Assembly: GCA_003131315.1 (NCBI GenBank)
Contig: PKUV01000069.1
Span: 1 to 42,792 of the forward strand
Length of the DNA stretch: 42,792 nucleotides
Reading direction: 5' to 3'
DNA from: Acidobacteriaceae bacterium
GTDB lineage: Bacteria; Acidobacteriota; Terriglobia; Terriglobales; Acidobacteriaceae
The notes below the pieces were generated by a model. The model ran no database searches, was not told the DNA's origin, and saw only the letters and a program-made list of their open reading frames with translations. The translations under genes were made by a program, and so were the position numbers. This document shows, piece by piece, positions 1 to 42,751 of this stretch. Within the stretch, counting starts at the first letter, position 1. Each line of letters starts with the position of its first letter.

Positions 1-425
1 GTACTTATGCCACGGGCTGCTAGAGGTTTGAACCCCGCGCCGTCCGCGGCGGTGGGGAATCGGCCCGCTGCTGGCGTATAGCGGCCATAGCTGTCCATGC
101 TGAACTGCGAGGTCTTCGAATTGCCTTCGGGGATCGGGTTGGTAACAAACCATTCCATATCTACGATGACATATTGCCAACCGTAAGGTTTGAGGTGCTC
201 GGCAAACCACTGGGCGTTGGCTTTGAATTTGGCTTCATTGATGGTCGTGCCGTACCCATCCCAGCTGTTCCAGCCCATGGGTGGAGTCTCTGCCAGCAGT
301 TGGGCATTCGTTGGTTGAGATGCCGCCGCAGTCGGCGAAGCGTTTGCCTGTCCCCAAGCGTTCGTCAGCAGAGCTTGAGAAATGAGAATGAAAACTACAC
401 TGCGCAATACGAGATGGGTCTCCAT
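1..425 (-). CDS. GH27 family glycosidase, N-terminal part (cut by window edge)
   Basis: Reading the minus strand from an ATG at 425 gives an open frame to the window edge (141 codons) with no stop. Residues 1 to about 24 form a Sec signal peptide (hydrophobic VVFILISQALL, then AWGQA). About residues 49-60 read ETPPMGWNSWDGYG, the first beta strand of the GH27/GH36 clan-D barrel; VIVDMEW follows in the second strand. GH27 is mainly alpha-galactosidase, but some members are beta-L-arabinopyranosidases, and the arabinose setting makes either plausible. It is the last visible gene of the ara strand, about 190 nt after the sugar-binding protein gene. The catalytic aspartates lie outside the window, so the activity cannot be judged. 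The family call is firm; the substrate is not. Confidence 0.85.
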   Translation of the reverse strand, partial: METHLVLRSVVFILISQALLTNAWGQANASPTAAASQPTNAQLLAETPPMGWNSWDGYGTTINEAKFKANAQWFAEHLKPYGWQYVIVDMEWFVTNPIPEGNSKTSQFSMDSYGRYTPAAGRFPTAADGAGFKPLAARGIS

Positions 426-612
426 AATGTCTGCTCTGTATAACGTGTGCTCTGTCCATTGTTGGAGTGGGTATGCACAGCATGCTTGCGGACGGTGCGA
501 GCGGTTCCGAAGGCCGAAGGAACTCAGTTGCATTGTGCTCCAACTTTTCCGGGCCAGCACCCCAAGGGCCCGTGCGATGTGCGGTCAGCTCTACCCTCCT
601 GCCGGGTGTTTG

Positions 613-1743: not shown

Positions 1744-1751
1744 TGAAATCT

Positions 1752-2879
1752 TTAGCGGGTAGAGAAGTCGTAGACGGTGACCGTGTGATAACGCTCACCG
1801 CGCTTCAACTCTGTCGTTGGGAAATCGGGGTGATTCGGAGAGTCGGGGAAGTGCTGTGTCTCCAGGCACAGTGCCGCATGCAACTCGTCCGGTTTCCCGC
1901 CCTTGCCTTTGATTGAGCCGTCCAGAAAGTTCCCGCTGTAGAACTGGATTCCCGGCTGATCCGTCAAGACTTTCAGCACGCGCCCGCTGGCTGGATCGTA
2001 GAGTTCCGCGGCTTCCGCCAGTTTCCCGCCGTTGTTATCCAGCGCCCAGTTGTGGTCATAGCCGTGACCCCGATGAAGCTGTTCATCGTCAGCGTTGATC
2101 CGCGCTCCAACCGCAGTCGCTTTGCGAAAATCAAAGGGAGTCGATTCCACAGACTTCAACTCACCCGTTGGAATCAGCCCGGCATCCACCGGTGTGAAGC
2201 GGGACGCATGGAGAGTGAGTTGATGGTTAAGGATGTCGCCCTGCCCAGCGAGATTGAAATAGGAGTGATTGGTCAAATTGACCACGGTGTCTTTGTCCGT
2301 GGTGGCTGAATACTCAATCCGCAAGCTCCCTTTCACCAATGTGTACCGAACCAAGGCCGACAGGTTGCCCGGATATCCCGCCTCGCCATCTTTGCTCAGA
2401 TAACTCAGTTCCACTCCGTTCGCGACTGGCTTTGCCTTCCAAACCACGTTGTTGAAGCCGTGCGGCCCACCGTGCAGAGTGTTCTCGCCGTTGTTCAGAG
2501 GCAGAGAGTATTTCTTGCCATCAAGCGTAAAACTGCCGTGCGCGATGCGATTCGCATAACGGCCAATGATAGCCCCGAAGAACGCGACTGAAGTCCCGTT
2601 AAAGTTGGCCACATAGCCGTCGAGATCATCGAACCCAAACACCACATCGGCCGTCTTGCCGTTACGGTCCGGAGCTTTCAGGGAAACCACAATCCCGCCG
2701 TACGTTGCGATTCGAGCTTCGTACGCGTCGTCGCTCAGCGTATAAATTTCTACCGGAGTTCCATTCGGTATCTTTCCAAATGACTGACTTGTCACCTTCG
2801 TCTTAGCCTCTGCAGTCATGGTAACCGCTAACCACAACCCGCCGATCGCGATCGCTCGCAGGACTTTCTGAATGCTCAT
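1752..2879 (-). CDS. galM: Aldose 1-epimerase (galactose mutarotase), secreted
   Basis: A 375-aa protein that interconverts alpha and beta anomers of aldoses such as galactose, glucose or arabinose. The start ATG at 2879 follows a GAGGAG ribosome site. Residues 1-25 form a signal peptide (IAIGGLWLAVTMTAEA), so it acts in the periplasm. Family marks include FGFDDLDGY, GRYANRI near residue 104, NGENTLHGG with the His that binds substrate, NLTNHSYFNLAG with the catalytic His near residue 205, and near the end GIQFYSGNFLDG with C-terminal LCLETQHFPDSPNHP holding the catalytic Glu. The gene starts 21 nt after the araB stop, so it belongs to the ara operon. A periplasmic mutarotase would speed uptake by equilibrating anomers released by the secreted glycosidases. 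Confidence 0.93.
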   Translation of the reverse strand: MSIQKVLRAIAIGGLWLAVTMTAEAKTKVTSQSFGKIPNGTPVEIYTLSDDAYEARIATYGGIVVSLKAPDRNGKTADVVFGFDDLDGYVANFNGTSVAFFGAIIGRYANRIAHGSFTLDGKKYSLPLNNGENTLHGGPHGFNNVVWKAKPVANGVELSYLSKDGEAGYPGNLSALVRYTLVKGSLRIEYSATTDKDTVVNLTNHSYFNLAGQGDILNHQLTLHASRFTPVDAGLIPTGELKSVESTPFDFRKATAVGARINADDEQLHRGHGYDHNWALDNNGGKLAEAAELYDPASGRVLKVLTDQPGIQFYSGNFLDGSIKGKGGKPDELHAALCLETQHFPDSPNHPDFPTTELKRGERYHTVTVYDFSTR

Positions 2880-2900: not shown

Positions 2901-4484
2901 CTACCGCGTTGCCTGGCCTGCTGAAGACTCTGCCACTGCAATTAATGTCGGCAGGATGTCTCCCAGACCGTCGCTACCCCGCTGACCCAAAGTGAAATAC
3001 AACTTGCTATACAAAGGATACAGATCTTCGTAAGTACGTTGCGCCGAGTCATCGGGCATGAACGTCCTGTGGGGAGGGCAAATCTTATCCTGCGCTTCCT
3101 CGATGGTCTTGAAAGTTCCAGCAGCCAGAAAAGCAAAGATTGCAGATCCAAGGCTAACCACGCTCTTGCTCGGAACCAGCACTGGACGCCCGAGCACGTT
3201 GGCATAGACCTGGTTCAGCGCATCATTTTTCTGAGGAATACCCCCGGCATTGATCACACGCCGGATGGTTACGCCATGCCCAGCCATACGATCCAGGATA
3301 ACGCGTGTATGAAACGCCGTCCCTTCGATCGCCGCGAAGAGTTCATCCTGGGCTGTGCTCTGCAGGTTCCATCCCAGCGTAACGCCGCGCAGGTTGGGGT
3401 TCACCAGCACGGTGCGGTCGCCGTTGTCCCACGTCATGCGCAGTAAGCCAGTCTGCCCTGCGCGATAATTCTCCAGACCGACGCTCAATGTCTTTACATC
3501 GGTTCCGGCACGAGAAGCAATCGCACTGAAGATGTCTCCCACGGCGGAGAGTCCGGCTTCGATTCCGGTGCGCAGAGGATGCACACTGCCATGAACAACG
3601 CCGCAAACGCCGGGCACCAGGTTCACCGACGGGGTGATTCCAATGATGCAAGTCGATGTGCCGACGACGTTCACCATGTCATCGGTTCGGCACCCGGCGC
3701 CAATAGCGTCCCAATGCGCGTCGAACGCTCCTACTGGGATCGGAATCCCTGCCTTCAGCCCCAATTGTTCAGCCCAGAACGCCGAGAGCGTACCGGCGAT
3801 TTGATCGGACGTAGCGTATTCGCCATCCAGTTTCTCGCGGACTCCCTTCAACAGAGGATCAACCTTTACCAGAAAGCTCTCCGGGGGAAGGCCACCCAGT
3901 TGTCGATTCCATAGCCACTTGTGTCCCATGGCGCAAACGCTGCGCTTTACTTTCTTAGGATCAGTGATGCCACAGAGCGTGGCCGCCACCATGTCGCAAT
4001 GCTCGAATGCGGAGACGAACTCCGATCGCACACCCGGATTGTGGCGGAGCCAGTGCAGAAGCTTCGAAAATCCCCACTCCGACGAGTACACGCCACCGCA
4101 CCATTGAATCGCTTCCAGCCCCTCGCGATGGGCCACTTCGGTGATCTCAGCGGCTTCCCCTTTAGCGCGGTGATCGCACCACAGGTAGTACTCTCCCAGC
4201 GGTTGCATGTTCTTGCCGACCGGAATCACGGATGAACCCGTGGTATCGAGCGCGATGGCCTGCACTTGATCCCCTGTGATGCCGGCCTTCTTCAGGGCTT
4301 CGCGCGTCGCGGAAGCCAGTGCCCGCATGTGATCGTCATGGGATTGGGTGGCGTATTCCGGATCTTCGCGCTTGCGGTGCAGCGGGTATTCCTGCACAGC
4401 AGACTCCAGCAGGCCGCGCTCGCTGTCCACCAGAGAGACGCGCACGCTAAGAGTCCCAAAATCCACTCCCGCCACGATGGCCAT
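2901..4484 (-). CDS. araB: Ribulokinase AraB
   Basis: A 527-aa FGGY-family sugar kinase that phosphorylates L-ribulose to L-ribulose 5-phosphate with ATP. The start is taken as ATG 4484 (MAIVAGVDFGTLSVR), which overlaps the TGA of the upstream isomerase gene by one base (TGATG). The phosphate-1 motif DFGTLSVR is at the N-terminus, with ALDTTGSSVIP near residue 80 and the AraB-typical WCDHRA. GAFDAHWDAIGAG near residue 260 carries the likely catalytic Asp, and the ATP-site motifs NVVGTSTC and INAGGIPQKN follow. Length is close to the usual 540-560 aa. Stop-start coupling with the isomerase and the araD gene in the same run support L-ribulose as substrate rather than xylulose. Confidence 0.95.
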   Translation of the reverse strand: MAIVAGVDFGTLSVRVSLVDSERGLLESAVQEYPLHRKREDPEYATQSHDDHMRALASATREALKKAGITGDQVQAIALDTTGSSVIPVGKNMQPLGEYYLWCDHRAKGEAAEITEVAHREGLEAIQWCGGVYSSEWGFSKLLHWLRHNPGVRSEFVSAFEHCDMVAATLCGITDPKKVKRSVCAMGHKWLWNRQLGGLPPESFLVKVDPLLKGVREKLDGEYATSDQIAGTLSAFWAEQLGLKAGIPIPVGAFDAHWDAIGAGCRTDDMVNVVGTSTCIIGITPSVNLVPGVCGVVHGSVHPLRTGIEAGLSAVGDIFSAIASRAGTDVKTLSVGLENYRAGQTGLLRMTWDNGDRTVLVNPNLRGVTLGWNLQSTAQDELFAAIEGTAFHTRVILDRMAGHGVTIRRVINAGGIPQKNDALNQVYANVLGRPVLVPSKSVVSLGSAIFAFLAAGTFKTIEEAQDKICPPHRTFMPDDSAQRTYEDLYPLYSKLYFTLGQRGSDGLGDILPTLIAVAESSAGQATR

Positions 4485-5914
4485 CAGCAGGCTCCGTTGT
4501 CGCACCCGTGCCAGTACATGTCCCAGCCTAGATAGCGAGTGGTGGCTTCCTGCACCGCCGATGCAACCGTCGAAAGATTAGCGGCAACGTGGTGCTCGAA
4601 GCCGTTCTTACAAATGAAATGCAGCAGCCGCTGCAGGTTCGGGATTTCGACCACTCCCGCGCCGCCGAAGGTGTTCAGCGGGTCGTCGGTGAATCGTCCT
4701 TCGCCCACGTAGCCGCGCATCTTGCCGGACGTGTCGTCGGTCGAGAAGCGGGCGAAGCTCATCTTTTCCGGCTTGATGAGCCCGACGCAGGTTCCGAATG
4801 TGTTGTCCTTGCCCACGGTACCGGCAATGATCTCCTGAAAATCCATCTTCACCGAGCGGAAGAAATGTTTGGGCAAATTGGAGCAGTGGAAGCAGACCGC
4901 CTTGTTCGGGTCCGATCCATAGTTGTTATTCCAATCGAGAAGAGCCGACGGAGTCCCCGAAGCAAGCTGCAGAGCGTGCATTCCGAGTACGCCGCAAATA
5001 TCCACTTCGCAAGCGCTGGACAGGAGTTCGTTACTCATCATGCTCATGACGGTGCAGGGAACGACGCCCAGGTTTTCTTCAATCGAAGTCCAGCACTGGA
5101 CCGCGCTGATCGCAACCTCGGTCGCCGCCATCCACTGGTCGACGACAGCCCCCAGTTTTGCCATCTTCAACAACGCCGCCGCGGGCACGCCGCTGGCATC
5201 CACGTACTTCTTGATGGCGGCCAACTTGGCCTGCGCATGGTCGTCATTGTCTTTCATGCGCTCGATGCGGCCCAGCACTTCGGAAAGATCGAGTGTCTCG
5301 ATGGAGATGCCCTGCGATTCCAGGATCTTCTCGCTATAACGCACCGTATTGAACGCGGCCGGACGCGCGCCGATGGCGCCGACTCGCAGGTTGCGAAATC
5401 CCTTTACCACCCGGCACACCGCCGCGAACCACTCCAGGTCTTTGGCGAACTCGTCCGAGTCGGGACTTTCCGTGTGCAGCGTCGTAATGGAATAGGGAAT
5501 GCCGTACTGCCGAAGGTTGTTGCAAGCCGACATCTTTCCGCAGAAGCTATCGCGCCGGAAAGCGATGGTCATCTTTTTCGGATCGTCCGGTGTCGCCTGA
5601 ATCAGCACCGGCACGCGCAGATCGGCCAGACGCAACGTATCGGCAATCGCCCGCTCTTCGCCGAAGTTGGGCAGTGTCACGATGATTCCGTCGATCCGCT
5701 CGCGATTGCGCTTGAACAGTTCGGCGCAACGCCGCGATTCTTCCCGTGTCTCCACCGCTCCGTACTTGCTCTGTTCCGGAGTGAGAGCCACCACCTCGAT
5801 GCCAGCCGCCTGCAACACCCGGAGCATCTCTTCCCGTCCGCTCTTGGCTAAATGGTCGGGGAAAAACCCCCGGTTGCCCACGATCAGGCCCATGGTCATT
5901 GTTTTTGCTGGCAT
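4484..5914 (-). CDS. L-fucose/L-arabinose isomerase family protein (COG2407), probable arabinose isomerase
   Basis: A 476-aa protein with no N-terminal resemblance to classical AraA. It reads as the FucI/AraA-like COG2407 family, beginning MPAKTMTMGLIVGNRGFFPD. The start ATG 5914 is chosen over an upstream GTG because AAAGGGA stands five bases before it. Likely metal ligands are the Glu in SSACEVDICG (about residue 305), the Asp in LLDWNNNYG (about 330) and a His in GFEHHVAANL near the C-terminus. It is one-base coupled to araB and shares a strand with araD, and no other isomerase is present, so L-arabinose to L-ribulose is the expected reaction. Fucose or another aldose remains possible. The call to isomerase is firm; the substrate is inferred from context. 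Confidence 0.85.
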   Translation of the reverse strand: MPAKTMTMGLIVGNRGFFPDHLAKSGREEMLRVLQAAGIEVVALTPEQSKYGAVETREESRRCAELFKRNRERIDGIIVTLPNFGEERAIADTLRLADLRVPVLIQATPDDPKKMTIAFRRDSFCGKMSACNNLRQYGIPYSITTLHTESPDSDEFAKDLEWFAAVCRVVKGFRNLRVGAIGARPAAFNTVRYSEKILESQGISIETLDLSEVLGRIERMKDNDDHAQAKLAAIKKYVDASGVPAAALLKMAKLGAVVDQWMAATEVAISAVQCWTSIEENLGVVPCTVMSMMSNELLSSACEVDICGVLGMHALQLASGTPSALLDWNNNYGSDPNKAVCFHCSNLPKHFFRSVKMDFQEIIAGTVGKDNTFGTCVGLIKPEKMSFARFSTDDTSGKMRGYVGEGRFTDDPLNTFGGAGVVEIPNLQRLLHFICKNGFEHHVAANLSTVASAVQEATTRYLGWDMYWHGCDNGAC

Positions 5915-5944
5915 AAAATTCCCTTTCGAAAAAGGCACGCTGCC

Positions 5945-6166: not shown

Positions 6167-7870
6167 TTACCAGAAAATAATGTTCAGTACGATGAAAACG
6201 ACAGTTATCACAGCAGCCCAGAAAAGAGGCTTCTGGTACAGAGGGACGTCCCCTACGGAGGGAACTTCCGTCAACCCGTATACCAGGCCCGTCAATTCGC
6301 TGTCAGGCATGGGTTTCGTCGCCAGACTTACCACCACGGTCACGACGACGCAAACTATAAAAGACCAGAGTGCCTGATACATATCCTGGGCAAGGCCTTT
6401 GGCGTGGGGCGAGAGCGCCACATAACGCAGCGCGGAAGGATCGAGTTTTACCCAAGTCCACATACTGACCGAAGAAAGCGTCCCGCACAGCAATCCCCAG
6501 AATCCGCCAGGGCCGGTCGCCCGCCTCCAGAGCATCCCGAGCACGACAGTACCGAATAGGGGAGCAATGAAGAAGCTGAATAACGCCTGTACGTAGTCCA
6601 TGATGCTGGCGAACTGCATCACGAGATACGCAGTGCCTACGCTGATCAGCACGCCGATGATCGTGGTCCAACGCCCCATGTTTACGTAATGATGGTCGCT
6701 GCCCTTGCTATTGATAAACGGCCGGTAGATGTCATACGTCCAGACGGTGGTGAATGCGCTCACATTCCCCGCCATTCCAGACATGAAGCCCGCGATCAGC
6801 GCCGTCACTCCCAGTCCCAGCAGTCCCGGCCCGCAGTAACGCGCCAGCATCAGCGGCAGAACGTCGTTGTAGCTGTAGCCCCCAGTTACCTTGGCCACCG
6901 ATTCCGGAACCAGCTTCATGGGTAGCACGGCCAAGCCCAGCAGTCCGGGCAGGATCACGATGAAGGGGACCATCATCTTGAATCCGGCGCCGATAATGGG
7001 CGCCATTTCCGCGCTGCGAATATCTTTCGCGGCCAGAATGCGCTGTACGACCAGGAAGTCTGTGGTCCAGTAGCCCATCGAGATAATCGAGCCCAGTCCG
7101 AACACAATGCCGGTCCAATGGATTCCCATGGGATTGGCGGTGAATGAGCCCAAACCGGACCAGAGATGGACGTACTGTTCCGATGCTCTCTGTGCAATTT
7201 GCAGTTTGAGGTTGGTCCACCCGCCGGCTTCGTATAATCCAAGGATCGGAATCAGCAGAGCGCCCGCCCAGATGAGGAAGAACTGCAGCACTTCATTGAA
7301 GATTGCCGAGCGCAGCCCGCCCAGCATGACATAAATGGCAACCGTCAGAGACGAGACCCAGATGCTGAAATTAATGTCCCATCCGAGCACAATCTGCATG
7401 ACCTTCGCCATGGCAAACATGTTGACGCCGCTCATGAGCACGGTCATGAATGCAAACGAAACCGCGGACAGGGCGCGGCTGGGTTCGCCGAAACGCAGTT
7501 TCAAATATCCCGGCACCGAGTGAGTTTTGGAAATGTAGTAGAACGGCATCATGACCAGCGCCAGGAACAGCATCGCCGGGATGGCGCCGATCCAATACCA
7601 GTGCGTCGCCAGAATGCCGTATTGGTAGGCAGAACCCGCCCAGCCCATCAGTTCGAGCGCACCGAGATTGGCCGAGAGAAAACTGAGACCGGCCACCCAC
7701 GCCGTCATCTCCCGTCCCGCCATGAAGAAATCTTCGCCGGTGTTGGCCCGCCCTTTTAAGTACCAACCGATGGAGAGAACCAGGGCAAAATAAAAAACCA
7801 CGATGACAACATCGACGGGAGCAAGATGTACCAGCCGAGTTGGTACAAGGGTCGCTAGCAGTGGTGTCAT
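6167..7870 (-). CDS. Sodium:solute symporter (SSS family), probable arabinose transporter
   Basis: A 567-aa inner-membrane protein of the solute:sodium symporter family, with about 13-14 hydrophobic helices. It opens with a periplasmic lead, then VDVVIVVFYFALVLSIGWYL. The SSS mark GRANTGEDFFMAGREMTAW follows at about residues 40-60, with FLSANLGALELMGWAGSAYQYG next and GLTALIAGFMSGMAGN-like residues near 355 (here GVTALIAGFMSGMAGNVSAF). The start ATG overlaps the araD stop by four bases (ATGA), so the two are translationally coupled. The setting among araD, isomerase and araB points to L-arabinose uptake driven by sodium. Sugar specificity cannot be read from the sequence. Confidence 0.92.
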   Translation of the reverse strand: MTPLLATLVPTRLVHLAPVDVVIVVFYFALVLSIGWYLKGRANTGEDFFMAGREMTAWVAGLSFLSANLGALELMGWAGSAYQYGILATHWYWIGAIPAMLFLALVMMPFYYISKTHSVPGYLKLRFGEPSRALSAVSFAFMTVLMSGVNMFAMAKVMQIVLGWDINFSIWVSSLTVAIYVMLGGLRSAIFNEVLQFFLIWAGALLIPILGLYEAGGWTNLKLQIAQRASEQYVHLWSGLGSFTANPMGIHWTGIVFGLGSIISMGYWTTDFLVVQRILAAKDIRSAEMAPIIGAGFKMMVPFIVILPGLLGLAVLPMKLVPESVAKVTGGYSYNDVLPLMLARYCGPGLLGLGVTALIAGFMSGMAGNVSAFTTVWTYDIYRPFINSKGSDHHYVNMGRWTTIIGVLISVGTAYLVMQFASIMDYVQALFSFFIAPLFGTVVLGMLWRRATGPGGFWGLLCGTLSSVSMWTWVKLDPSALRYVALSPHAKGLAQDMYQALWSFIVCVVVTVVVSLATKPMPDSELTGLVYGLTEVPSVGDVPLYQKPLFWAAVITVVFIVLNIIFW

Positions 7871-8568
7871 TGCTTATCCTTGCCTTGTCCGTAATATGCG
7901 TTCTTGCCGTGTTTTCTCAGGTAATGCTTGTCGTGTAGCGCGCTTCCAACCGGTTGTGCCGCTGCATTGATGCCCAGCGTGAAGTAGGCCATCCGCGCGA
8001 GAGCCTCCAGAATGGCCGCGTTATGAGCAGCCGCTCCGGCATTCTCTCCCCAGGCGAAAGGCCCATGGTTGGCCACCAGCATGCCCGGGGTCGCCGACGG
8101 ATCTGTCTGCTGCAGGCTGCGAACAATGGCGTGGCCTGTGTTCTTTTCATAGTCTTCGGCAATCTCTTGATCGGTCATTTCGGAGGTTACCGGTACTGGA
8201 CCATGGAAATAGTCCGCGTGCGTGGTGCCGAAGCATGGGATGGGCCTGCGGGCCTGGGCCCAGGCGGTGGCATATTCGGAGTGGGTGTGAGCAACGCCGC
8301 CGATTTCAGTAAACTGGTTATACAACACCAGATGAGTAGGGAGGTCGGAGGAAGGCCTCAAATTGCCCTCCACGATGTTGCCGAGCAGATCCGTGACGAC
8401 CAAGTGCTCCGGTTTCATCTGCTCATAAGGGACACCGCTGGGCTTGATAACCACCAGGCCCTCTTCACGCGAGATGCCGCTGGCATTGCCGAACGTGTAC
8501 AGGACAAGACCTCGTCGTACCAGTTCCAGGTTGGCGTCCAGGACTTGTTCCCGCAAACGTTGCAGCAT
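7867..8568 (-). CDS. araD: L-ribulose-5-phosphate 4-epimerase AraD
   Basis: A 233-aa class II aldolase-family enzyme that turns L-ribulose 5-phosphate into D-xylulose 5-phosphate, the last step of bacterial arabinose catabolism. Seen motifs are FGNASGISREEGLVVIKPSG at about residues 26-45 (phosphate binding), SSDLPTH with the catalytic-site Asp near residue 75, and the zinc ligands in GGVAHTHSEYA at about 91-101. Next come TTHADYFHG and MLVANHGPFAWG with the third zinc His. Length matches E. coli AraD (231 aa). It is the first gene of the ara operon: the promoter and a LacI-type operator lie just upstream at 8606-8660. Confidence 0.95.
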   Translation of the reverse strand: MLQRLREQVLDANLELVRRGLVLYTFGNASGISREEGLVVIKPSGVPYEQMKPEHLVVTDLLGNIVEGNLRPSSDLPTHLVLYNQFTEIGGVAHTHSEYATAWAQARRPIPCFGTTHADYFHGPVPVTSEMTDQEIAEDYEKNTGHAIVRSLQQTDPSATPGMLVANHGPFAWGENAGAAAHNAAILEALARMAYFTLGINAAAQPVGSALHDKHYLRKHGKNAYYGQGKDKQ

Positions 8569-8753: not shown

Positions 8754-8785
8754 AATGCTGTTCTAACTCAATGCTGTTCTAACCC
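8754..8785. repeat. Tandem 16-bp duplication across the lacI stop codon
   Basis: The unit AATGCTGTTCTAACTC (8754-8769) is followed at once by AATGCTGTTCTAACCC (8770-8785), 15 of 16 bases alike. The lacI stop codon (8768-8770) falls at the junction, so the duplication lies across the end of the gene. It looks like a replication-slippage event. Confidence 0.7.
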
Positions 8786-34689: not shown

Positions 34690-35813
34690 CCGCAGCTTCG
34701 TATGACGTAGTCGTTGTTGGGGCGGGGATCGTAGGAGTGGCCTGCGCCGACCAGTTTGCGCGGCGCGGCATGCGCGTGGCGATTGTCGACCGGGATATGG
34801 TTGGAGCTGGCGCCACCGCGGCGGGCATGGGCCACATCGTGGTGATGGACGACTCCGAGCCGCAATTTTCGCTCACTCGTTACTCGCAGACCCTGTGGCA
34901 GGGATTGAGGTTGGAACTGCCCGACGACGTCGAATACGAACAGTGCGGAACGATCTGGATTGCCGCTGACGACGAAGAGATGGCCGAGGTATGGCGCAAA
35001 CGGGAATATTACAACAAGCGCGGAGTGCCGACCGAAGTGCTCGATGCCCAAACCCTGCAGCGCCTCGAACCCAATCTGCGTCCGATGGCTGGCGGCCTTC
35101 TGGTCCCCGAGGATGCCGTGTTGTATCCGCCCTGCGCAGCCCGCTTTCTTTCGGAACGCGCGCAGGCGCATGGGGCAAAGTTTCTTCTCGGAGATTCGGT
35201 CGCACAAATTGGACAAGGTCGAGTGCATCTGAGCCATGGCTTGCAACTCGCGGCCGAGGTCATTGTGAATGCGGCTGGCGCTTACGCGCCCGACCTCACG
35301 CCGGGACTCGAAATCAGGAAACGAAAAGGTCACTTAGTCATTACCGATCGATATCCCGGTTTCATTCGACATCAATTGGTCGAACTGGGTTACCTGAAGA
35401 GTGCTCATTCGGTGACTAGCGATTCGGTAGCATTCAACGTCCAGCCGCGTCGCACGGGTCAAGTTCTCATCGGGTCATCCCGGCAACAAGGGGCAGAGCA
35501 CAGGGAAGTTGATAACGAGATCCTGGTGCGCATGTTGAAGCGTGCCCAGGAATACATTCCAGACCTGATGCAAATGTCCGCCCTGCGCACATGGACCGGG
35601 TTCCGTGCCGCCACGCCTGACAAACTTCCATTGATCGGGCCCTGGCCGGCCGACAAGTCTTTGTTCCTGGCGGCTGGGCATGAGGGTCTAGGCATCACTA
35701 CCTCTCTTGGAACCGCCAGGCTTCTCGCCGATCACATCACGGGCGCGAAACCGGAGATTCCGATTGAGCCGTATTTGCCTTCTCGTGCGGCCAAGGTGGA
35801 GGTCCATGCTTAG
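34686..35813 (+). CDS. D-hydroxyproline dehydrogenase, FAD catalytic subunit (DadA-like)
   Basis: A 375-aa flavoprotein of the D-amino acid oxidase/glycine oxidase fold. The start GTG at 34686 overlaps the epimerase stop (GTGA). Residues about 6-35 hold the Rossmann FAD motif VVVVGAGIVGVACADQFARR, and GATAAGMGHI follows. The C-terminal substrate/FAD part reads MSALRTWTGFRAATPDKLPL and FLAAGHEGLGITTSLGTARL. It would oxidise cis-4-hydroxy-D-proline to pyrroline-4-hydroxy-2-carboxylate. The next two genes code for a small 2Fe-2S protein and a second flavoprotein, the same set as the three-part D-hydroxyproline dehydrogenase of Pseudomonas, so it is probably the alpha part of such a complex. Confidence 0.9.
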   Translation: MTAASYDVVVVGAGIVGVACADQFARRGMRVAIVDRDMVGAGATAAGMGHIVVMDDSEPQFSLTRYSQTLWQGLRLELPDDVEYEQCGTIWIAADDEEMAEVWRKREYYNKRGVPTEVLDAQTLQRLEPNLRPMAGGLLVPEDAVLYPPCAARFLSERAQAHGAKFLLGDSVAQIGQGRVHLSHGLQLAAEVIVNAAGAYAPDLTPGLEIRKRKGHLVITDRYPGFIRHQLVELGYLKSAHSVTSDSVAFNVQPRRTGQVLIGSSRQQGAEHREVDNEILVRMLKRAQEYIPDLMQMSALRTWTGFRAATPDKLPLIGPWPADKSLFLAAGHEGLGITTSLGTARLLADHITGAKPEIPIEPYLPSRAAKVEVHA

Positions 35814-36051
35814 CGAGATCATCGTGACGGTGAATGGAGTTCCAGTGACGGTCCCTTCGGGTGCGACCGTGACGACTGCGGTTCTGCTCGCCGGGAAGGC
35901 ATGTCGGACTTCGGTAAGTGGCGAACCGCGCGGGCCGTTGTGTGGGATGGGTATTTGTTTTGAATGTCGCGTAGCCATCAATGGAAAACCCCATTGCCAA
36001 AGCTGCCAGACTTTGTGTGAGCAGGGGATGGAAGTAAGGACAGATGAGTAG
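35806..36051 (+). CDS. Small (2Fe-2S)-binding subunit of D-hydroxyproline dehydrogenase
   Basis: An 81-aa ferredoxin-like protein. GGAGG stands five bases before the ATG, and the gene overlaps the previous one by eight bases and the next by eight. It begins IIVTVNGVPVTVPSGATV, the beta-grasp opening of 2Fe-2S ferredoxin domains. The cluster cysteines are seen in GPLCGMGICFECRV and in QSCQTLCEQG. In heteromeric D-hydroxyproline and sarcosine-type dehydrogenases a protein of this size carries electrons between two flavin subunits. The tight overlaps on both sides fit a fixed subunit ratio. Confidence 0.9.
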   Translation: MLSEIIVTVNGVPVTVPSGATVTTAVLLAGKACRTSVSGEPRGPLCGMGICFECRVAINGKPHCQSCQTLCEQGMEVRTDE

Positions 36052-37351
36052 GGAAGTGCGACAACGATTCGACGTTCTCGTCGTAGGCGGTGGGCCTGCA
36101 GGCGTGGCGGCAGCGGTCCGCGCGGCGGAAGCCGGTGTCCGTGTCGGAGTCGTCGATGACAATGTGAACCTGGGTGGACAAATTTGGCGCGGCGGGCCCG
36201 AGCATGAAAAAGAAACCTCAGCCGCGGGATGGATATCGCGGTTGCGAGCCTCCGGAGCAACGATCCTTTGCGGGTTGAGGATTTTTCACCAACCCGAAGC
36301 CGGGGTGTTGCTGGCGGAGGGACACGACGACCTCCATGTGCTGAGCTATACGAAGCTGGTACTAGCAACTGGAGCGCGGGAGAGATTCCTGCCATTTCCA
36401 GGATGGACCCTGCCGAATGTCACCGGTGTCGGCGGCTTGCAGGCAATGGTGAAGTCCGGCCTTCCCATTCGCGGGAAACGCGTCGTTATTGCCGGAACCG
36501 GTCCTCTGTTGCTCGCGGTCGCTGCGTATCTGCGTGAACACGGTGCAGAGATTCCAATCATTTGTGAGCAAGCCTCCTGGAGTAGCTTGGCCAGGTTCGG
36601 AGTGGCGCTGTTTGGTCAACCCGGCAAGATCGCACAGGGACTTCAGTTGAAGCGACAACTTGCCGGAATAAAGTTTTCTGCGAATAGCTGGCCGCTGGCC
36701 GTCCACGGCAAAGCGGCTGTCGAAGCCGTTGTGATCTTCCGTAGAGGGCAGACGGAGGCGATCGCTTGCGATTACCTCGCGTGTGGCTTTCATCTCGTCC
36801 CTAATATCGAATTGCCCCTGTTGCTAGGGTGCCAGATTCAACGTGGGTACGTGCGAGTTGACGACTACCAAAGAACGACCGTCCAGGAAATTCTATGCGC
36901 GGGCGAACCGACCGGCATTGGAGGCGTTGAGTTGTCGCTCGCCGAAGGCCAGATCGCAGGTCTCGTCGCCAGTGGGCAGATGACCGAGGCGAAGAAATTG
37001 TTCGGTGCGCGGAACAGGGCACGCTATTTTGCACGGAGTCTTGACCGAGCATTCCGTCTGCGTTCGGAGCTCAGAAGGCTCCCCTCTCCGGACACGATCG
37101 TCTGCCGTTGCGAAGACATTCGTTATTCCCGTCTCTCCAGGCACACATCCTGGCGCTCGGCCAAACTGCACACGCGATGCGGCATGGGACCTTGTCAGGG
37201 ACGGGTTTGTGGAACTTCAACTGAATTTCTTTTTAAGTGGAATCCGGATTCTGTCCGGCCGCCGATCTTGCCCGTTCGGGTGGAGAGCCTGGCGGCGATG
37301 TCCAGCGAACTCGATTTGGAATGCAGTGGAGTGTCAGGAGGGCACAAATGA
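36044..37351 (+). CDS. NAD(P)/FAD-dependent oxidoreductase subunit with BFD-like iron-sulfur domain
   Basis: A 435-aa flavoprotein. Residues about 9-40 have a dinucleotide-binding motif (VLVVGGGPAGVAAAVRAAEA), about 140-150 a second (VVIAGTGPLLLAVAAYLREH), and GEPTGIGGVELSLAEGQIAG near residue 290 the usual FAD contact. The C-terminal part has four cysteines in IVCRCEDI and RCGMGPCQGRVCG, a BFD-like 2Fe-2S domain. This layout is that of the beta part of heteromeric D-hydroxyproline dehydrogenases and opine/octopine-type oxidases. It overlaps the gene before by eight bases and the gene after by four (ATGA), so all are made from one message. Confidence 0.88.
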   Translation: MSREVRQRFDVLVVGGGPAGVAAAVRAAEAGVRVGVVDDNVNLGGQIWRGGPEHEKETSAAGWISRLRASGATILCGLRIFHQPEAGVLLAEGHDDLHVLSYTKLVLATGARERFLPFPGWTLPNVTGVGGLQAMVKSGLPIRGKRVVIAGTGPLLLAVAAYLREHGAEIPIICEQASWSSLARFGVALFGQPGKIAQGLQLKRQLAGIKFSANSWPLAVHGKAAVEAVVIFRRGQTEAIACDYLACGFHLVPNIELPLLLGCQIQRGYVRVDDYQRTTVQEILCAGEPTGIGGVELSLAEGQIAGLVASGQMTEAKKLFGARNRARYFARSLDRAFRLRSELRRLPSPDTIVCRCEDIRYSRLSRHTSWRSAKLHTRCGMGPCQGRVCGTSTEFLFKWNPDSVRPPILPVRVESLAAMSSELDLECSGVSGGHK

Positions 37352-38271
37352 ACTGGAAAGGTGTGATGCCGGCAATCACAACCAGTTTTACCGAGGATCT
37401 CAAAGTCGATCATCGCTTCATGGCGAGCCATTGTCGCTGGTTGCTGGACAATGGTTGTACAGGCATCGTGGCCCTCGGATCTTTAGGAGAAGGCGCGACG
37501 TTGTCCTTCGACGAGAAGATCGAGATTCTGGGAACGTGTGCGGAATCTGTTCGTGGGCGTGGAATGGTGGCCGCCGCCATCTCTGCACTGTCCACCGCAG
37601 AGGCTGTTGCCCTTGCCAAAAAGGCTGCGGAACTTGGCTGCGATGGCCTCATGGTGCTGCCCCCTTATGTGTACGAGGGGAACTGGCGCGAGATGAAGGC
37701 CCACGTTGCCGCAGTGTTTGGAGCAACTCCTCTTTCTTGCATGCTCTACAACAACCCAGTCGCTTACGGGACGGATTTTCTGCCCGAACAGATTCGAGAA
37801 TTAGCGGAAGAATATGACAACCTCGAGGCCGTGAAGGAGTCGAGCACCGACGCGAGGCGCGTTTCCGCGATTCGGGTCCTGCTCGATCGCCGCTTGGAGA
37901 TATCCGTGGGAGTGGATGATGCGGTGTTGGAAACCATCGGGGTGGGTGCTACAGGGTGGGTCGCCGGCCTCGCCAACGCCCTTCCGAGGGAGTCTGTCGA
38001 CCTGTTCGATCTTGGCATGAACGGGCAGAGTGAGAAAGCGTTTGAGCTGTATCGGTGGTTCCTGCCGCTGCTTCGGATGGACACCGTGCCAAACTTCGTC
38101 CAGCTCATCAAACTTGTTCAAACGGAATTTGGCATGGGCAACACTCGTGTCCGTCCGCCTCGGCTGGAACTGATCGGGGACGAACTCGAACACAACCGAC
38201 AGATCATTCGTCATGCGTTGCAAAACCGGCCGCAGATCGTGAGCAGCTATGCCCTGCCGGATGGAAAGTAA
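37348..38271 (+). CDS. Pyrroline-4-hydroxy-2-carboxylate deaminase (DHDPS family)
   Basis: A 307-aa TIM-barrel enzyme of the dihydrodipicolinate synthase/N-acetylneuraminate lyase family. The ATG overlaps the previous stop (ATGA). Residues seen: GSLGEGATLS near 44-53 (carboxylate binding), the catalytic Tyr134 in CMLYNNPVAYG and the Schiff-base Lys163 in LEAVKESSTD. Alone it could be any member of a wide family, but in this operon the expected reaction is deamination and dehydration of pyrroline-4-hydroxy-2-carboxylate to alpha-ketoglutarate semialdehyde. Its stop lies just ahead of the next gene's start, with a 10-nt gap. Confidence 0.87.
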   Translation: MNWKGVMPAITTSFTEDLKVDHRFMASHCRWLLDNGCTGIVALGSLGEGATLSFDEKIEILGTCAESVRGRGMVAAAISALSTAEAVALAKKAAELGCDGLMVLPPYVYEGNWREMKAHVAAVFGATPLSCMLYNNPVAYGTDFLPEQIRELAEEYDNLEAVKESSTDARRVSAIRVLLDRRLEISVGVDDAVLETIGVGATGWVAGLANALPRESVDLFDLGMNGQSEKAFELYRWFLPLLRMDTVPNFVQLIKLVQTEFGMGNTRVRPPRLELIGDELEHNRQIIRHALQNRPQIVSSYALPDGK

Positions 38272-38281
38272 CCAGGTTTAC

Positions 38282-39901
38282 ATGGGAAAACTTACAGGTC
38301 GATCGATGATCGGGTTTCGGGATGGTGCAACTGAAGTTGAGCCATTCCACGCAACCAATCCAGCCACGGGGGAACATCTTCCGCCGGGCTTTTTTCCTGC
38401 AACACCGGAGGAAACGGATCTTGCCGCGCGACTGGCCGCTGACGCTTTTGCGGTCTACAGTCGCACCTCGGGGAAGGAGAAAGCCGCATTCCTGCGCAAA
38501 ATCGCCAACAAGATTGAGTCTGTTGCGAGCGAGGTGATCGATCGCGCCGGGCAGGAAACGGCACTCCCTCAGGCTCGTCTGCAAGGGGAAACGGCGCGCA
38601 CGTGCGGCCAGCTTCGTCTGTTCGCCACAGTTGTGGAAGAAGGCTCTTGGGTCGCGGCACGGATTGACCGCGCCGTTCCCGACCGCAAACCCCTTCCCAA
38701 GCCAGACCTACGTTCCATGTTGCGGCCGCTGGGCCCGGTGGTTGTTTTCGGAGCAAGCAACTTTCCTTTGGCTTTCTCGGTTGCTGGGGGAGATACTGCG
38801 TCTGCCTTGGCGGCAGGAAATCCTGTGGTCGTGAAGGCGCATGCAGCCCACCCCGGCACCGCCGAACTGGTCGGGTGCGCGGTGCGAGAGAGTGTTCGCG
38901 AATGCGGTCTGCCCGAAGGTGTCTTCTCGCTGCTTTTTGGCGCTGGAGCGCGCGTCGGAGCGGCACTTGTGAAGCATCCCCTGGTGAAGGCGGGGGGCTT
39001 CACCGGCTCCCGCTCTGCCGGAAGAACGCTAATGGATCTTGCAGCGTCACGCTCAGAGCCGATTCCGTTTTACGCCGAGATGAGCAGCACCAATCCGGTT
39101 TTCATCCTTCCGGGCGCGTTGCGAGAGCGAGGCGAGAGAATTGCGGCGGGACTGCACTCTTCCTTCACTATGGGAGCCGGCCAATTCTGTACAAAACCGG
39201 GAATGGTTTTCCTCGCTGATGACACCGATGAGGCTCCATTCAGAAATAAGCTGCGAGAACTCGTCGAGGCGTCCGCGGAATTCAGACTGCTGACTGCAAA
39301 TATCCATTCGTCCTACCAGTCGGCGGTGGCGAACCGGAAGTCAAGGGGCACAGCGACCATTGCCGCCCAAGCTGCCGAGCCGTCTGATAGCCGCGGTTTT
39401 GCCGTGGGTTCGATATTGTTTGAGACTGATTCCACGTCGTTCTTGAAGAACCCGGGTCTCGACGCCGAAATCTTTGGACCCACGACGCTGCTCGTGCGCA
39501 ACACGAAGCGCGACGAAATGCTGGAGATTGCTCGAAATCTTGAGGGGCACCTTACCGCGACGATTCATGGAACCGATCGGGATCTGCGAGAGTTTGCGGA
39601 GCTGATCTCAATTTTGGAAGGGAAGGTCGGCAGGCTGGTGTTCAATGACTTTCCAACTGGCGTCGAGGTCAGTCACGCTATGGTGCATGGCGGGCCTTAT
39701 CCTTCCACCTCGGACGGACGCTCAACATCGGTGGGAAGCCAGGCAATTTTCCGGTTTACGCGGGCAGTTTGTTATCAGGGATTCCCGGATCGCGCTTTGC
39801 CAGATGAGTTGAAAGACGCCAATCCGCTGGGGATCTGGCGAATGGTCGACGGACAGATGACACAGGAAGTGAACGTACCCGCCTCGTCTAGCCGGGCGTG
39901 A
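38282..39901 (+). CDS. Alpha-ketoglutarate semialdehyde dehydrogenase
   Basis: A 539-aa aldehyde dehydrogenase. The start is taken as ATG 38282 (MGKLTGRSMIGF), an upstream start being inside the previous gene. Visible sites: the oxyanion Asn160 in FGASNFPLAFS, Lys185 in PVVVKAHAAHPGT, the general base Glu266 in YAEMSSTNPVF and the nucleophile Cys303 in GAGQFCTKPG. The sequence style (FGASNFPLAFSVAGGDTASA) is typical of the ketoglutarate semialdehyde group. It gives alpha-ketoglutarate, which enters the TCA cycle and closes the hydroxyproline route. The same semialdehyde is also an intermediate in nonphosphorylating arabinose breakdown, so it could in principle serve both sugars and hydroxyproline. 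Confidence 0.93.
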   Translation: MGKLTGRSMIGFRDGATEVEPFHATNPATGEHLPPGFFPATPEETDLAARLAADAFAVYSRTSGKEKAAFLRKIANKIESVASEVIDRAGQETALPQARLQGETARTCGQLRLFATVVEEGSWVAARIDRAVPDRKPLPKPDLRSMLRPLGPVVVFGASNFPLAFSVAGGDTASALAAGNPVVVKAHAAHPGTAELVGCAVRESVRECGLPEGVFSLLFGAGARVGAALVKHPLVKAGGFTGSRSAGRTLMDLAASRSEPIPFYAEMSSTNPVFILPGALRERGERIAAGLHSSFTMGAGQFCTKPGMVFLADDTDEAPFRNKLRELVEASAEFRLLTANIHSSYQSAVANRKSRGTATIAAQAAEPSDSRGFAVGSILFETDSTSFLKNPGLDAEIFGPTTLLVRNTKRDEMLEIARNLEGHLTATIHGTDRDLREFAELISILEGKVGRLVFNDFPTGVEVSHAMVHGGPYPSTSDGRSTSVGSQAIFRFTRAVCYQGFPDRALPDELKDANPLGIWRMVDGQMTQEVNVPASSSRA

Positions 39902-39958
39902 ACGAAATCCATTTTCAGAGTAAACATCCTTAACCAGGAACAAGGGGGTCCTCGCGAC

Positions 39959-42751
39959 GTGCGCAAGATCCGTTCGTTTTCGCCGACGTTCGTTTGCCGG
40001 GTTTTGCTGGTGTTGAGTCTGGCAGCTTTGTTCCAGCTAGCCCTTTGCGGCCAAGAGAGAGGCAAGAAAAAGCCTCCGGTTCCGGGGCCGATGCTGAGTC
40101 AGGGGAAAGTGCAGTTCGACACCCCCGAGTTTTCCTTGAGTCTGGTCCGTTCATCGCAAACGGTTGCCGCGTTGCAGCCGAAGGGGGCGGGCGATTTCGA
40201 TTTCACTCCCGGCGATCTGCTCGTTGCACGCTCGAACAATGGTTATTTTCACTTGGGCGACGTGACGTTGCGCTTGCGCGCTGGAAGCTCTGGTGAATGG
40301 AAAAACTATTCCACCGCCGAAGCTCGCAAGCCGGTGATCGTTCTGTCTGCTACTCAAGATGTTTTGGCCGCCGCCGACCTTGCACCTTCCCTTCCCGCCG
40401 ACATCCCGTTGCAGGTTACTCGAACATGGATGTTGGATCGTGGAAAACTCGTCCTGCGTTTCACCTTGAAGAATAAGACTGCTGAGACAGTTCAATTGGG
40501 AGCGCTCGGCATTCCGATGATCTTCAATAACGTACTCAATGACCGCTCGCTGGAAGAGGCTCACGCCAAGTGTTCTTTTTACGATCCTTACATCGGAGAA
40601 GATGCTGGATACCTTCAAGTAACGCGGCTCAGCGGTCACGGTCCCGCTCTGTTGGTTGTGCCGGATGGCAAGACTCCCTTCGAGGCCTACAACCCTATTC
40701 TGGATCGTGCGCGGGGCCGAGGTGGGGCAATCTCAATCTTCACCGACCCCACACCACGGGGTATCACCTTCGAAGGGTTTTATCAATGGATGGTTCACAG
40801 TCAGGCTTATGCCGACAGCGAGTGGAAAAAGGCGCAACCGTGGAATTCTTCAACCTTGCTGACCCTCGCTCCCGGCGAGTCGAGGACCTACGGGCTAAAG
40901 TTTCTCCGTTCGGACTCGATTCGCAACATCGAAAAGACGCTTGCTGACAATGATCGTCCAGTTGCCATCGGTGTGCCCGGCTACATTCTGCCCACCGACA
41001 TCAACGGTCGTCTTCTCCTGAAGTACTCGAAGGCCGTGAAGTCGGTTGTCGTCGAACCAGAAGGCTCTATTTCTGTCAGTCGCGATCCATCATCTCCAGT
41101 CGGCTGGCAATCCTTCTCGCTGCAGGGCAAGACCTGGGGACGTGCTCGTCTCTCTGTGATCTATGCCGACGGCTCCGAGCAGGCGATCCACTATTTCGTG
41201 ATCAAGCCCGAGGCCGATGCGGTTGCCGACATGGGGCATTTTCTGACCACGCGGCAATGGTTCACTGATTCAACGGACCCTTTCCATCGCGCTCCCTCAG
41301 TCATGTCCTACGACCGCGAACTTAACCAGATCGTCCAACAGGAGAGCCGCGTCTGGATAGCTGGTTTGAGCGACGAAGGCGGCGCAGGATCTTGGCTTGC
41401 CGCCATCATGAAAGAACTGGGCCAGCCCGACAAGGTAGAGGTCGAGAAGCTCGATCGATTTGTAGATGAAGTTGTGTGGGGTGGTCTGCAGTTTAGGGAC
41501 GGCCCACATCAGTACGGAGTCCGCAAGAGTCTCTTCTACTTCCAGCCGGATCAGCTTCCGCCGAATTACTATCGCAGCGATCTCGACTGGAAGAGTTGGA
41601 CGAGCTGGAGCAAACAGGCATCCGAAGCGGTCGACCGGTCGTATAACTACCCGCATGTTGCGGCTGCGTACTGGGTGCTTTACCACCTTGCGCGCAACGA
41701 TCAGGGACTCGTCACGCGACATCCGTGGAACTGGTATCTCCCGCACGCTTACGAAACCGCGGTCGCCATGACAACCTTCGCGCCTGACTTGGCGCAGTTC
41801 GGTCAGATGGAAGGCGACATCTTCGTGCAGATACTGGTGGATCTGAAACGAGAGGGTATGAAAACCGAGGCGGATACACTCGAAGCGAAGATGCACGAGC
41901 GCGCTGACCGCTGGAAAGCTCAAGCGTATCCCTTTGGCAGCGAAATGCCATGGGACTCGACCGGACAGGAAGAAGTGTATGCGTGGACAAAATACTTCGG
42001 CTATCCGGACAAGGCTGACGTAACGCTCAATGCGATTCTGGGCTATGACCCGGCGATTCCGCACTGGGGGTACAACGGCAGCGCGCGCCGCTATTGGGAT
42101 TTTCTGTATGGCGCGAAGTATAGCCGGATTGAGCGACAACTCCACCACTACGGCTCGGGCATCAACGCGATTCCTCTGCTGAGCGAGTATCGACAGCACC
42201 CAGATGATTTTTACCTGCTGCGAATCGGCTATGCCGGCACAATGGGCGCTTTGACTGACATTGACCAGGAAGGCTTCTTGTCTCCAGCATTTCATTCCTT
42301 TCCAGACATGCTCAGCTTCGATCCACTCTCCGGCGACAATGGCCCGAATTTCTTTGGCCACGCGTGGAACACCGCGACCTACGTGGTGGATCAGCCCGAT
42401 TTCGGCTGGCTGGCGTTCGGAGGCAATGTCAAAGTCGAAGGCGTCCAGGTTGAAGTCACGCCGCTCGACTCTTTCCGAACGCGAATCTATCTCGCCCCCA
42501 TGGGATTGTGGCTAACGCTGGATGCCGGCCAGTTCGAGCGTGTAGAGATCAATCCTCAAACCGGCAACGTGCGCGTCGGGTTGAGAGCAGCAACCGAGAT
42601 ATCCCTCGCGGCACGTCTTCGTATTGAGCAGCCAGCAGTCAGCAGCAAAGGTAGCTACCGCCTCGTACCTCACTTCGATTTCGAGAGAGATGCGTATGTG
42701 GTCCCACTCAGTAAGGACGTCACTTGGGTTGAATTGAGCATACATCCCTAG
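39959..42751 (+). CDS. Large secreted protein, DUF5695-like, possible glycosidase
   Basis: A 930-aa protein from a GTG at 39959, with AAGGGGG about ten bases before it. Residues 1-32 are a signal peptide (VLLVLSLAALFQLALCGQE). Mature residues to about 420 look like beta-sandwich domains; about 430-780 are rich in Trp and Tyr helices with repeated motifs such as WNWYLPHAYETAVAMT, PHWGYNGSARRYWDF, LHHYGSGINAIPLLSEY and DNGPNFFGHAWNTATYV, as in (alpha/alpha)6-barrel glycosidases. The whole resembles the DUF5695 group, whose function I cannot state. It starts 57 nt after the hydroxyproline operon on the same strand, so it may be co-expressed and act on the glycan of the same substrate. Catalytic residues cannot be assigned. 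Confidence 0.75.
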   Translation: MRKIRSFSPTFVCRVLLVLSLAALFQLALCGQERGKKKPPVPGPMLSQGKVQFDTPEFSLSLVRSSQTVAALQPKGAGDFDFTPGDLLVARSNNGYFHLGDVTLRLRAGSSGEWKNYSTAEARKPVIVLSATQDVLAAADLAPSLPADIPLQVTRTWMLDRGKLVLRFTLKNKTAETVQLGALGIPMIFNNVLNDRSLEEAHAKCSFYDPYIGEDAGYLQVTRLSGHGPALLVVPDGKTPFEAYNPILDRARGRGGAISIFTDPTPRGITFEGFYQWMVHSQAYADSEWKKAQPWNSSTLLTLAPGESRTYGLKFLRSDSIRNIEKTLADNDRPVAIGVPGYILPTDINGRLLLKYSKAVKSVVVEPEGSISVSRDPSSPVGWQSFSLQGKTWGRARLSVIYADGSEQAIHYFVIKPEADAVADMGHFLTTRQWFTDSTDPFHRAPSVMSYDRELNQIVQQESRVWIAGLSDEGGAGSWLAAIMKELGQPDKVEVEKLDRFVDEVVWGGLQFRDGPHQYGVRKSLFYFQPDQLPPNYYRSDLDWKSWTSWSKQASEAVDRSYNYPHVAAAYWVLYHLARNDQGLVTRHPWNWYLPHAYETAVAMTTFAPDLAQFGQMEGDIFVQILVDLKREGMKTEADTLEAKMHERADRWKAQAYPFGSEMPWDSTGQEEVYAWTKYFGYPDKADVTLNAILGYDPAIPHWGYNGSARRYWDFLYGAKYSRIERQLHHYGSGINAIPLLSEYRQHPDDFYLLRIGYAGTMGALTDIDQEGFLSPAFHSFPDMLSFDPLSGDNGPNFFGHAWNTATYVVDQPDFGWLAFGGNVKVEGVQVEVTPLDSFRTRIYLAPMGLWLTLDAGQFERVEINPQTGNVRVGLRAATEISLAARLRIEQPAVSSKGSYRLVPHFDFERDAYVVPLSKDVTWVELSIHP

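Follow-up and report, generated by a model that had tools for sequence, protein, structure and literature searches.

The contig PKUV01000069.1 of a 6.0-Mb Acidobacteriaceae genome (GCA_003131315.1), which ends at position 42792 and was analysed over its entire length of 42,792 bp (the window), carries a candidate gene cluster for the breakdown of hydroxyproline (Hyp)-rich glycoproteins. The open reading frames (ORFs) of the window were scanned with Pfam and ten proteins additionally with NCBIfam; signal-like and twin-arginine translocation (Tat)-like N-termini were judged by eye rather than with a signal predictor. The minus-strand arm consists of a glycoside hydrolase family 27 (GH27) fragment, a split periplasmic-binding protein, an aldose epimerase, a ribulokinase, a fucose-isomerase-type isomerase, an SSF symporter, an AraD-type gene, a LacI regulator and a PF07944 enzyme, and the middle of the contig is occupied by TPR and FG-GAP/UnbV genes and a receptor. 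The right arm comprises an S9 peptidase, GH31 and GH51, followed by a GntR regulator and a permease on the minus strand and by the run HypE-DAO-FAD-DHDPS-ALDH-DUF5695. Signal-like or Tat-like N-termini are present in the GH enzymes, the S9 peptidase, DUF5695, the receptor and the aldose epimerase, and none was recognised by eye in the kinase, the isomerase and the Hyp enzymes. A first-pass annotation had noted GH enzymes, an S9 peptidase, a large receptor and routes for arabinose and Hyp in this one stretch and had read them as a system that takes apart a whole plant glycoprotein. Pfam and NCBIfam agree with this inventory, the roles of the isomerase, DHDPS and ALDH proteins being assigned by context; the observation is thus confirmed and the interpretation, as discussed below, partly supported.

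The PF07944 protein (10158..12476, minus strand; Pfam 368 bits) is a β-L-arabinofuranosidase that keeps the Zn/nucleophile Glu and Cys motifs. The ORF is too long at its 5' end, the Tat-like signal and the domain start lying internally. The enzyme had been labelled GH127, and while its assignment as a PF07944 β-L-arabinofuranosidase stands, it is closer to GH146, with 328 bits to BT0349 and 187 bits to Bll3HypBA1 (both GH146) versus 45 bits to HypBA1; in the same comparison, the PF07944 protein of the related locus L003 reached 433, 178 and 31 bits, respectively. The GH146 members Bll4HypBA1 and XeHypBA1 are reported to hydrolyse the linkage between β-arabinofuranose (Araf) and Hyp (Araf-β1-Hyp; PMC10850190), and the proposed substrate therefore survives the relabelling. 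The GH51 α-L-arabinofuranosidase (29514..31100, plus strand), which has Pfam GH51 domains, a Tat-like signal and a match of 412 bits to 2vrk, means that the window holds both β- and α-arabinofuranosidase families. The neighbouring GH31 protein (26606..29395, plus strand; Pfam, Tat-like signal) is YicI-like: it scores 523 bits against the NCBIfam α-xylosidase model, which is under the cut-off of 606, and 479 and 405 bits against 5f7c and YicI. The GH27 ORF (3..560, minus strand; signal-like N-terminus) reads TPPMGWNSWDGYGTT and runs off the contig. Pfam gave no match at E<=10 for positions 3-419 of the window, whereas a phmmer search of the PDB aligned residues 88-181 with GH27 enzymes at 1e-28, giving 104 bits for 3cc1, 97 bits for the β-L-arabinopyranosidase Abp and at most 28 bits for enzymes labelled as α-galactosidases. 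The family assignment is hence real, though for a truncated gene, and the α-galactosidase role ascribed to it does not clearly fit.

Between these glycosidase genes lies a set of genes on the minus strand that probably serves the use of arabinose. It encodes an aldose 1-epimerase (1752..2879; PF01263, 310 bits), an AraB-type ribulokinase of the FGGY family (2901..4505), which reaches 556 bits with NF003154 (cut-off 428) and 340 bits with TIGR01234, under its cut-off of 583, and a fucose-isomerase-type sugar isomerase (4484..5938; Fucose_iso_C). The latter is proposed to be an L-arabinose isomerase because it is placed beside the ribulokinase and an Aldolase_II gene (7867..8568), the putative L-ribulose-5-phosphate 4-epimerase AraD. 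An SSF sodium:solute symporter (6167..7870) may take up arabinose, and a LacI-family regulator (8768..9907) follows. On the plus strand, a large outer-membrane receptor (20143..24075; OMP_b-brl_4 with CarboxypepD_reg) precedes an S9 peptidase of the dipeptidyl peptidase IV (DPP-IV) type (24193..26502; Pfam, 224 bits to 2d5l), whose active-site motifs are kept and whose signal-like N-terminus suggests export.

Genes for the oxidative degradation of trans-4-Hyp are commonly organised in bacteria as one run encoding an epimerase, a flavin adenine dinucleotide (FAD)-dependent dehydrogenase, a deaminase and a semialdehyde dehydrogenase. The window contains all of these families in a co-directional run on the plus strand, which differs from the common operon in that it ends in an exported, glycan-type DUF5695 protein and adjoins arabinosidases and the S9 peptidase. 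Its first gene encodes a member of the proline racemase family (33736..34689), the 4-hydroxyproline 2-epimerase HypE, which scored 442 bits with NCBIfam NF010577 at a cut-off of 442 and 441.5 bits, marginally under it, in a second run. The motifs CGHGT and CGTGTS, which we take to be the two catalytic-cysteine motifs of HypE, are both kept, and the nearest relatives in named genomes (best 80 of at least 577) are from Acidobacteriaceae and Sulfotelmatobacter metagenome-assembled genomes with 77-79% identity. Downstream follow a DAO-family protein (34668..35813) and a Pyr_redox_2 protein (36044..37351), the presumed subunits of an FAD-dependent D-hydroxyproline dehydrogenase, a DHDPS-family protein (37237..38271), proposed to be the pyrroline-4-hydroxy-2-carboxylate deaminase, and an aldehyde dehydrogenase (ALDH; 38249..39901), the candidate α-ketoglutarate semialdehyde dehydrogenase. 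The last two exceed the Pfam cut-offs and stay under all listed NCBIfam equivalog cut-offs, so that their Hyp roles are proposed from operon context. From HypE to DUF5695, the ORFs overlap or are 57 bp apart, with the exception of 230 bp between the DAO and FAD genes. Upstream, on the minus strand, are a GntR/FCD regulator (31224..31997) and an amino acid permease (32021..33727; Pfam, NCBIfam), which may import Hyp or peptides.

The last gene of the Hyp run (39959..42751, plus strand; PF18951, signal-like N-terminus) went unnamed in the first-pass annotation and encodes a DUF5695 protein; like PF07944, this family has one match in the genome, and both matches lie inside the window. Fourteen full-length relatives share 53-70% identity with the window protein, and 257 columns are invariant over the 15 sequences; E494, R560, Y564, E662 and D666 stay unchanged even when the divergent set is included. 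A 24-sequence profile that includes divergent paralogues had BACCELL_00875 (5no8), an L-rhamnose-α-1,4-D-glucuronate lyase of polysaccharide lyase family 27 (PL27), as its sole PDB match at 3.5e-19, in two stretches covering N-terminal and helical regions; the 15-sequence profile reached the same protein at 1.1e-4, and a search with the single sequence missed it. Judged by these profiles, DUF5695 is a remote relative of PL27, a family for which gum arabic is the substrate of the known members (PMC8377490). We predict that it is a glycan-active enzyme, but we do not assign it to PL27, because the link is one of homology and the predicted structure was unusable: AlphaFold models of the window protein, of two pieces from L003 and of the L006 paralogue had a mean pLDDT of 38 and could not serve for fold comparison. 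The companions of DUF5695 point to arabinose, which sets it apart from PL27, and a PL27-type lyase reaction is not assumed. None of the 40 stretches of viral contigs that fitted a DUF5695 pattern was a relative by profile, and an open-licence PubMed Central search for DUF5695 surfaced only work on fungal regulators. The unstudied family thereby gains a fold relative and a testable substrate hypothesis. A second, divergent DUF5695 type of about 1,070-1,160 amino acids often stands beside DUF5695, GH31 or arabinose genes (L006:9525-12794, L117:6746-10087, L122:3271-6537, L127:3370-6588, L132:2610-6104 and L140:5116-8334), and the member in L006 carries an F5/8-type domain.

Conservation of the cluster was examined in related genomes. 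Among 200 genomes of the class, 22 have DUF5695 (15 full-length), 40 have HypE at E<=1e-60 and nine have both, a modest co-occurrence (Fisher p 0.003 when only full-length DUF5695 is counted and 0.02 when every DUF5695 is). HypE lies <=20 kb from DUF5695 and <=22 kb from a PF07944 gene in seven of these nine genomes (G000, G033, G087, G091, G135, G155 and G194); the two exceptions are G030, with HypE and DUF5695 on different contigs, and G043, which has only a divergent DUF5695. The naive placement probability is 7e-10 for HypE and PF07944 in at least 7/9 and 1e-13 for HypE and DUF5695 in at least 7/8 genomes, values that treat the genomes as independent though they are related and that use distances picked post hoc. 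The gene order differs between genera, as illustrated by DUF5695-GH27-S9-PF07944-GH51-permease-DUF885-DHDPS-FAD-DAO-HypE in G033 and by the single-strand run HypE-DAO-FAD-DHDPS-GH27-DUF5695 of G087, whose genes are less than 100 bp apart, and the set has therefore been kept through rearrangement. DUF5695 also lies inside the Hyp transcription run in G135 and G155. Neighbourhoods of 27 of the 40 class HypE genes were inspected (the window, six others and a further twenty, these last mostly about 10 kb to each side and some ending at contig edges), and nine contain PF07944, GH27 or DUF5695, namely those of the seven linked genomes, G139 (PF07944 before ALDH-HypE) and G151 (HypE-DHDPS-GH27 with S9 and DUF885).

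Beyond the class, 15 of 297 phylum genomes have full-length DUF5695, nine of them outside the class. In one of these, G278, receptor and GH51 genes share a strand, and the opposite strand carries HypE-DAO-FAD-DHDPS-ALDH-S9-DUF5695 (blastp). A PF07944 gene is near DUF5695 in G458, G416, G321 and G336, the last of which also has ribulokinase- and AraD-like genes, while G381 has GH51-like and GH31 genes only and no partners were found by blastp in G207 (on a short contig), G249 (at a contig edge) and G435. Of the 24 full-length DUF5695 genes, 11 have PF07944 at a distance of up to 20 kb and two more (G000, G199) have it at 27-28 kb, and Hyp catabolism is within 20 kb in nine (eight HypE, one HypD); DUF5695 is therefore tied somewhat more widely to arabinosidases than to Hyp. 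In named genomes, where the best 80 of at least 577 confirmed HypE relatives were surveyed, many of them on short contigs, partner genes were sought by tblastn. PF07944 of the window kind was found in 2/80 loci (L003, L018), GH27 in 2/80 (L003, L039) and DUF5695 in 3/80 (L003, L018 and L006, the last with a divergent member). The order in L003 is receptor-S9-unknown-GH27-GntR/HypE-DHDPS-ALDH-PF07944-GH51-DUF5695, and DAO and FAD genes were not found in this cluster. Short GH51-like matches of about 60-95 residues beside HypE in L004 and L013 were left uncounted.

The earlier view that arabinosidase, peptidase and Hyp genes form one unit would have been refuted had Hyp operon and arabinosidases never been linked in related genomes. 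It withstood this check, as the two are linked in rearranged orders in several relatives (seven of nine class genomes, L003 and G278), although most HypE loci of other bacteria lack these partners. Melibiase_2-type GH27 genes, members of the family to which α-galactosidases belong, are part of the clusters in L003, G033, G087, G091 and G151; GH27 is frequent in such genomes, with as many as 11 matches, and its presence in clusters alone is therefore weak evidence. Extensin bears α-galactose on Ser, and removal of this sugar could fit the GH27 genes of the relatives, though not clearly that of the window.

No other single finding speaks as strongly for a role of the cluster in Hyp use as that from one genome, G199. 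HypE was not detected there in the search of the 200 class genomes at E<=1e-60, but parts of the oxidative operon persist, and a single contig carries PF07944, GH51, GntR, a short ALDH, FAD and DAO genes, the receptor, TPR and UnbV genes, S9, a protein of 826 amino acids, DUF885, DUF5695, a radical-SAM protein, a glycyl-radical enzyme, an M24 peptidase and an amino acid permease. With 1103 bits (next best 548), trans-4-Hyp dehydratase (HypD) is the top match of the glycyl-radical enzyme, which sits with its activase and the M24 peptidase beside DUF5695. A different Hyp enzyme is thus found in the same company. HypD occurs in six of the 22 DUF5695 genomes and shares the DUF5695 contig only in G199; the HypD genes of G043, G028, G138, G051 and G166, on other contigs, were not counted, nor was a GH27 gene near HypD in G043, from which it is separated by restriction-modification genes.

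Based on these data, the locus is probably a catabolic unit for an arabinosylated, Hyp-rich plant cell-wall glycoprotein, with the extensin type as the likeliest. Extensin and solanaceous lectins carry one to four Araf units on Hyp (PMC6085000). Extensin in particular fits best and is a serious candidate for the substrate, at slightly less than even odds: the comparative support goes to the broader part of the proposal, breakdown of a Hyp-rich glycoprotein, and a PL27-related DUF5695 protein is present. Only tentatively do we suggest a dedicated, modular system of the Acidobacteriota by which both sugar and backbone of extensin are taken apart, with aerobic and anaerobic Hyp pathways as exchangeable cassettes and with DUF5695 as a new family of exported PL27-superfamily enzymes acting on arabinose-rich glycans of Hyp-rich glycoproteins.

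Several observations weigh against this interpretation. PF07944, GH27 and DUF5695 are all missing within reach in 76 of the 80 named HypE loci (tblastn), including those of Duganella, Massilia and Pseudomonas, and in 18 of the 27 class neighbourhoods (blastp to the reference set), namely those of four members of the window's own family, of two members of family f6 and of all twelve examined from f5, f8 and f9. Conversely, Hyp genes are absent from the stretch examined around 15 of the 24 full-length DUF5695 genes. A palindrome scan of chosen intergenic stretches revealed no operator shared by the two arms; among its 25 candidates, one was LacI-like, with a core that occurs once in the window versus 1.31 times expected. 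The nearest characterised relative of the GH27 fragment is Abp rather than an α-galactosidase, the YicI-like GH31 enzyme is still without a clear place in the scheme, as had been conceded at the outset, and the reading is drawn from gene content and comparison. Our confidence is tempered because the distances were chosen post hoc and most full-length DUF5695 genes lack Hyp neighbours.

The substrate might be an arabinogalactan protein (AGP) rather than extensin, in which case arabinose-rich side chains would be trimmed, backbone Hyp used and a side-chain cap removed by DUF5695, as PL27 enzymes do on gum arabic. This version is kept because of the PL27 link, the arabinopyranosidase-like GH27 fragment and the GH39 genes that precede DUF5695 in G064 and G122; the GH146 enzyme Bll3HypBA1 is, moreover, reported to be active on AGP and arabinan (PMC10850190). 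We nevertheless consider it doubtful, as kinship with PL27 does not imply the same reaction and no galactanase or β-galactosidase family was found in the window scans or in the chosen scanned ORFs of relatives. It is likewise unlikely that two or more unrelated units merely adjoin each other, one for arabinose from arabinan or pectin and the other a general Hyp operon that draws on free Hyp or on other proteins. The Hyp operon does stand alone in many genomes, arabinosidase/DUF5695 sets also occur without Hyp genes, the LacI and GntR regulators are separate, and BT0349, the nearest solved relative of the PF07944 enzyme, belongs to a rhamnogalacturonan-I locus (PMC10850190); yet the joint and rearranged occurrence of HypE, PF07944 and DUF5695 in seven of nine genomes, the insertion of GH27 and DUF5695 into Hyp runs and the exchanged pathway in G199 speak against chance neighbourhood, shared ancestry left aside. 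Some Solanaceae have β-Araf-α-Araf-Xyl side chains on xyloglucan, which PF07944, GH51 and the GH31 enzyme, nearest to the YicI α-xylosidase model and adjoining GH51, might remove in turn with the Hyp part as a bystander, but this is highly improbable given that no xyloglucanase family appeared in the Pfam scans of the window, that the YicI-like GH31 is not constant and the GH31 of relatives is of another type, and that the Hyp and S9 genes would be left unexplained.

If the locus serves the use of a Hyp-rich glycoprotein, the exported GH146-like β-L-arabinofuranosidase would strip the glycan together with GH51, GH27, GH31 and DUF5695, and the exported DPP-IV-type peptidase would cut the Hyp/Pro-rich backbone into short peptides. 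Uptake of the products would fall to the receptor, the symporter and the permease. Arabinose would then be isomerised, phosphorylated and epimerised, and trans-4-Hyp would be converted by the epimerase, the FAD dehydrogenase, the deaminase and the semialdehyde dehydrogenase to α-ketoglutarate, with the LacI and GntR regulators serving the two arms. Hyp-rich glycoproteins, extensins among them, make up a tough fraction of plant walls that contains nitrogen; soil Acidobacteriota would thus draw carbon and nitrogen from them by joining deglycosylation, peptide cutting and the use of arabinose and Hyp, which would constitute a dedicated way of recycling these plant glycoproteins. No acidobacterial locus of this type was seen among the open-licence PubMed Central papers listed.

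The best comparable systems are HypBA1, HypBA2 and HypAA of Bifidobacterium longum and Xanthomonas euvesicatoria, which combine a GH127/GH146 β-L-arabinofuranosidase with an α-L-arabinofuranosidase for arabinose on Hyp-rich glycoproteins and, in the excerpts of PMC6085000, PMC10850190 and PMC7263609, release sugar only. The window enzymes are candidates for activity on Hyp-arabinosides. In place of GH43, the window has GH51: no GH43 was found in the window and its genome has one below-cut-off match elsewhere, while GH43 is present in the clusters of the relatives G087 and G091 (Pfam), G135 (blastp) and G155 (content table). GH121, whose absence had already been remarked upon, was not named in the Pfam scans of the window, made with a library that was not checked for a GH121 model. 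The window adds S9, the receptor, Hyp catabolism and DUF5695. For Latescibacteria, GH127 enzymes were proposed to take arabinose from extensins and peptidases to attack cell-wall protein; the excerpt of PMC4454575 presents a genome inventory and describes neither a linked locus nor a Hyp catabolic operon. Polysaccharide utilisation loci of the Bacteroidetes type group a receptor gene with genes for exported glycosidases, for sugar catabolism and for regulators. The window resembles them but lacks a SusC/SusD pair, its receptor being of the OMP_b-brl_4 type and no SusD family being seen in the Pfam scans of its ORFs.

The TPR and FG-GAP/UnbV (ASPIC) gene set in the middle of the contig (11812..20013, both strands; Pfam) may be part of the system. 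Similar paired sets have the receptor or DUF5695 as a neighbour in G194, G199 and G064, and a TPR/UnbV-type set was also seen beside the Hyp operon in L026. Within the same region, two ORFs at 15252-16592 (minus strand) have no Pfam family. The Peripla_BP_4 periplasmic-binding protein at 613-1798 (minus strand) is split into two frames, each covering about half of the profile, the split being due to a frameshift or to an error in sequencing; the window scans showed no ABC transporter gene to go with it.

Some further genes recur in the neighbourhoods of relatives. DUF885 stands beside Hyp operons or DUF5695 at L125:12086-13876, L130:7134-8927 and L115:15961-17841 (Pfam) and at L148:4353-6191 and L162:8012-9748 (blastp); none of the five has an HEXXH motif, so that a metallopeptidase reading is unsupported by that motif. 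An exported-looking family of about 800-845 amino acids with no Pfam match over cut-off adjoins DUF5695, S9 or GH27 (L003:5276-7813, L115:13506-15986, L142:1120-3561) and is possibly another new glycan enzyme. Finally, two class genomes carry a second gene of the proline racemase family (L151:8745-9890, L152:8921-9985; 30% identity), which is divergently placed beside the HypE operon.

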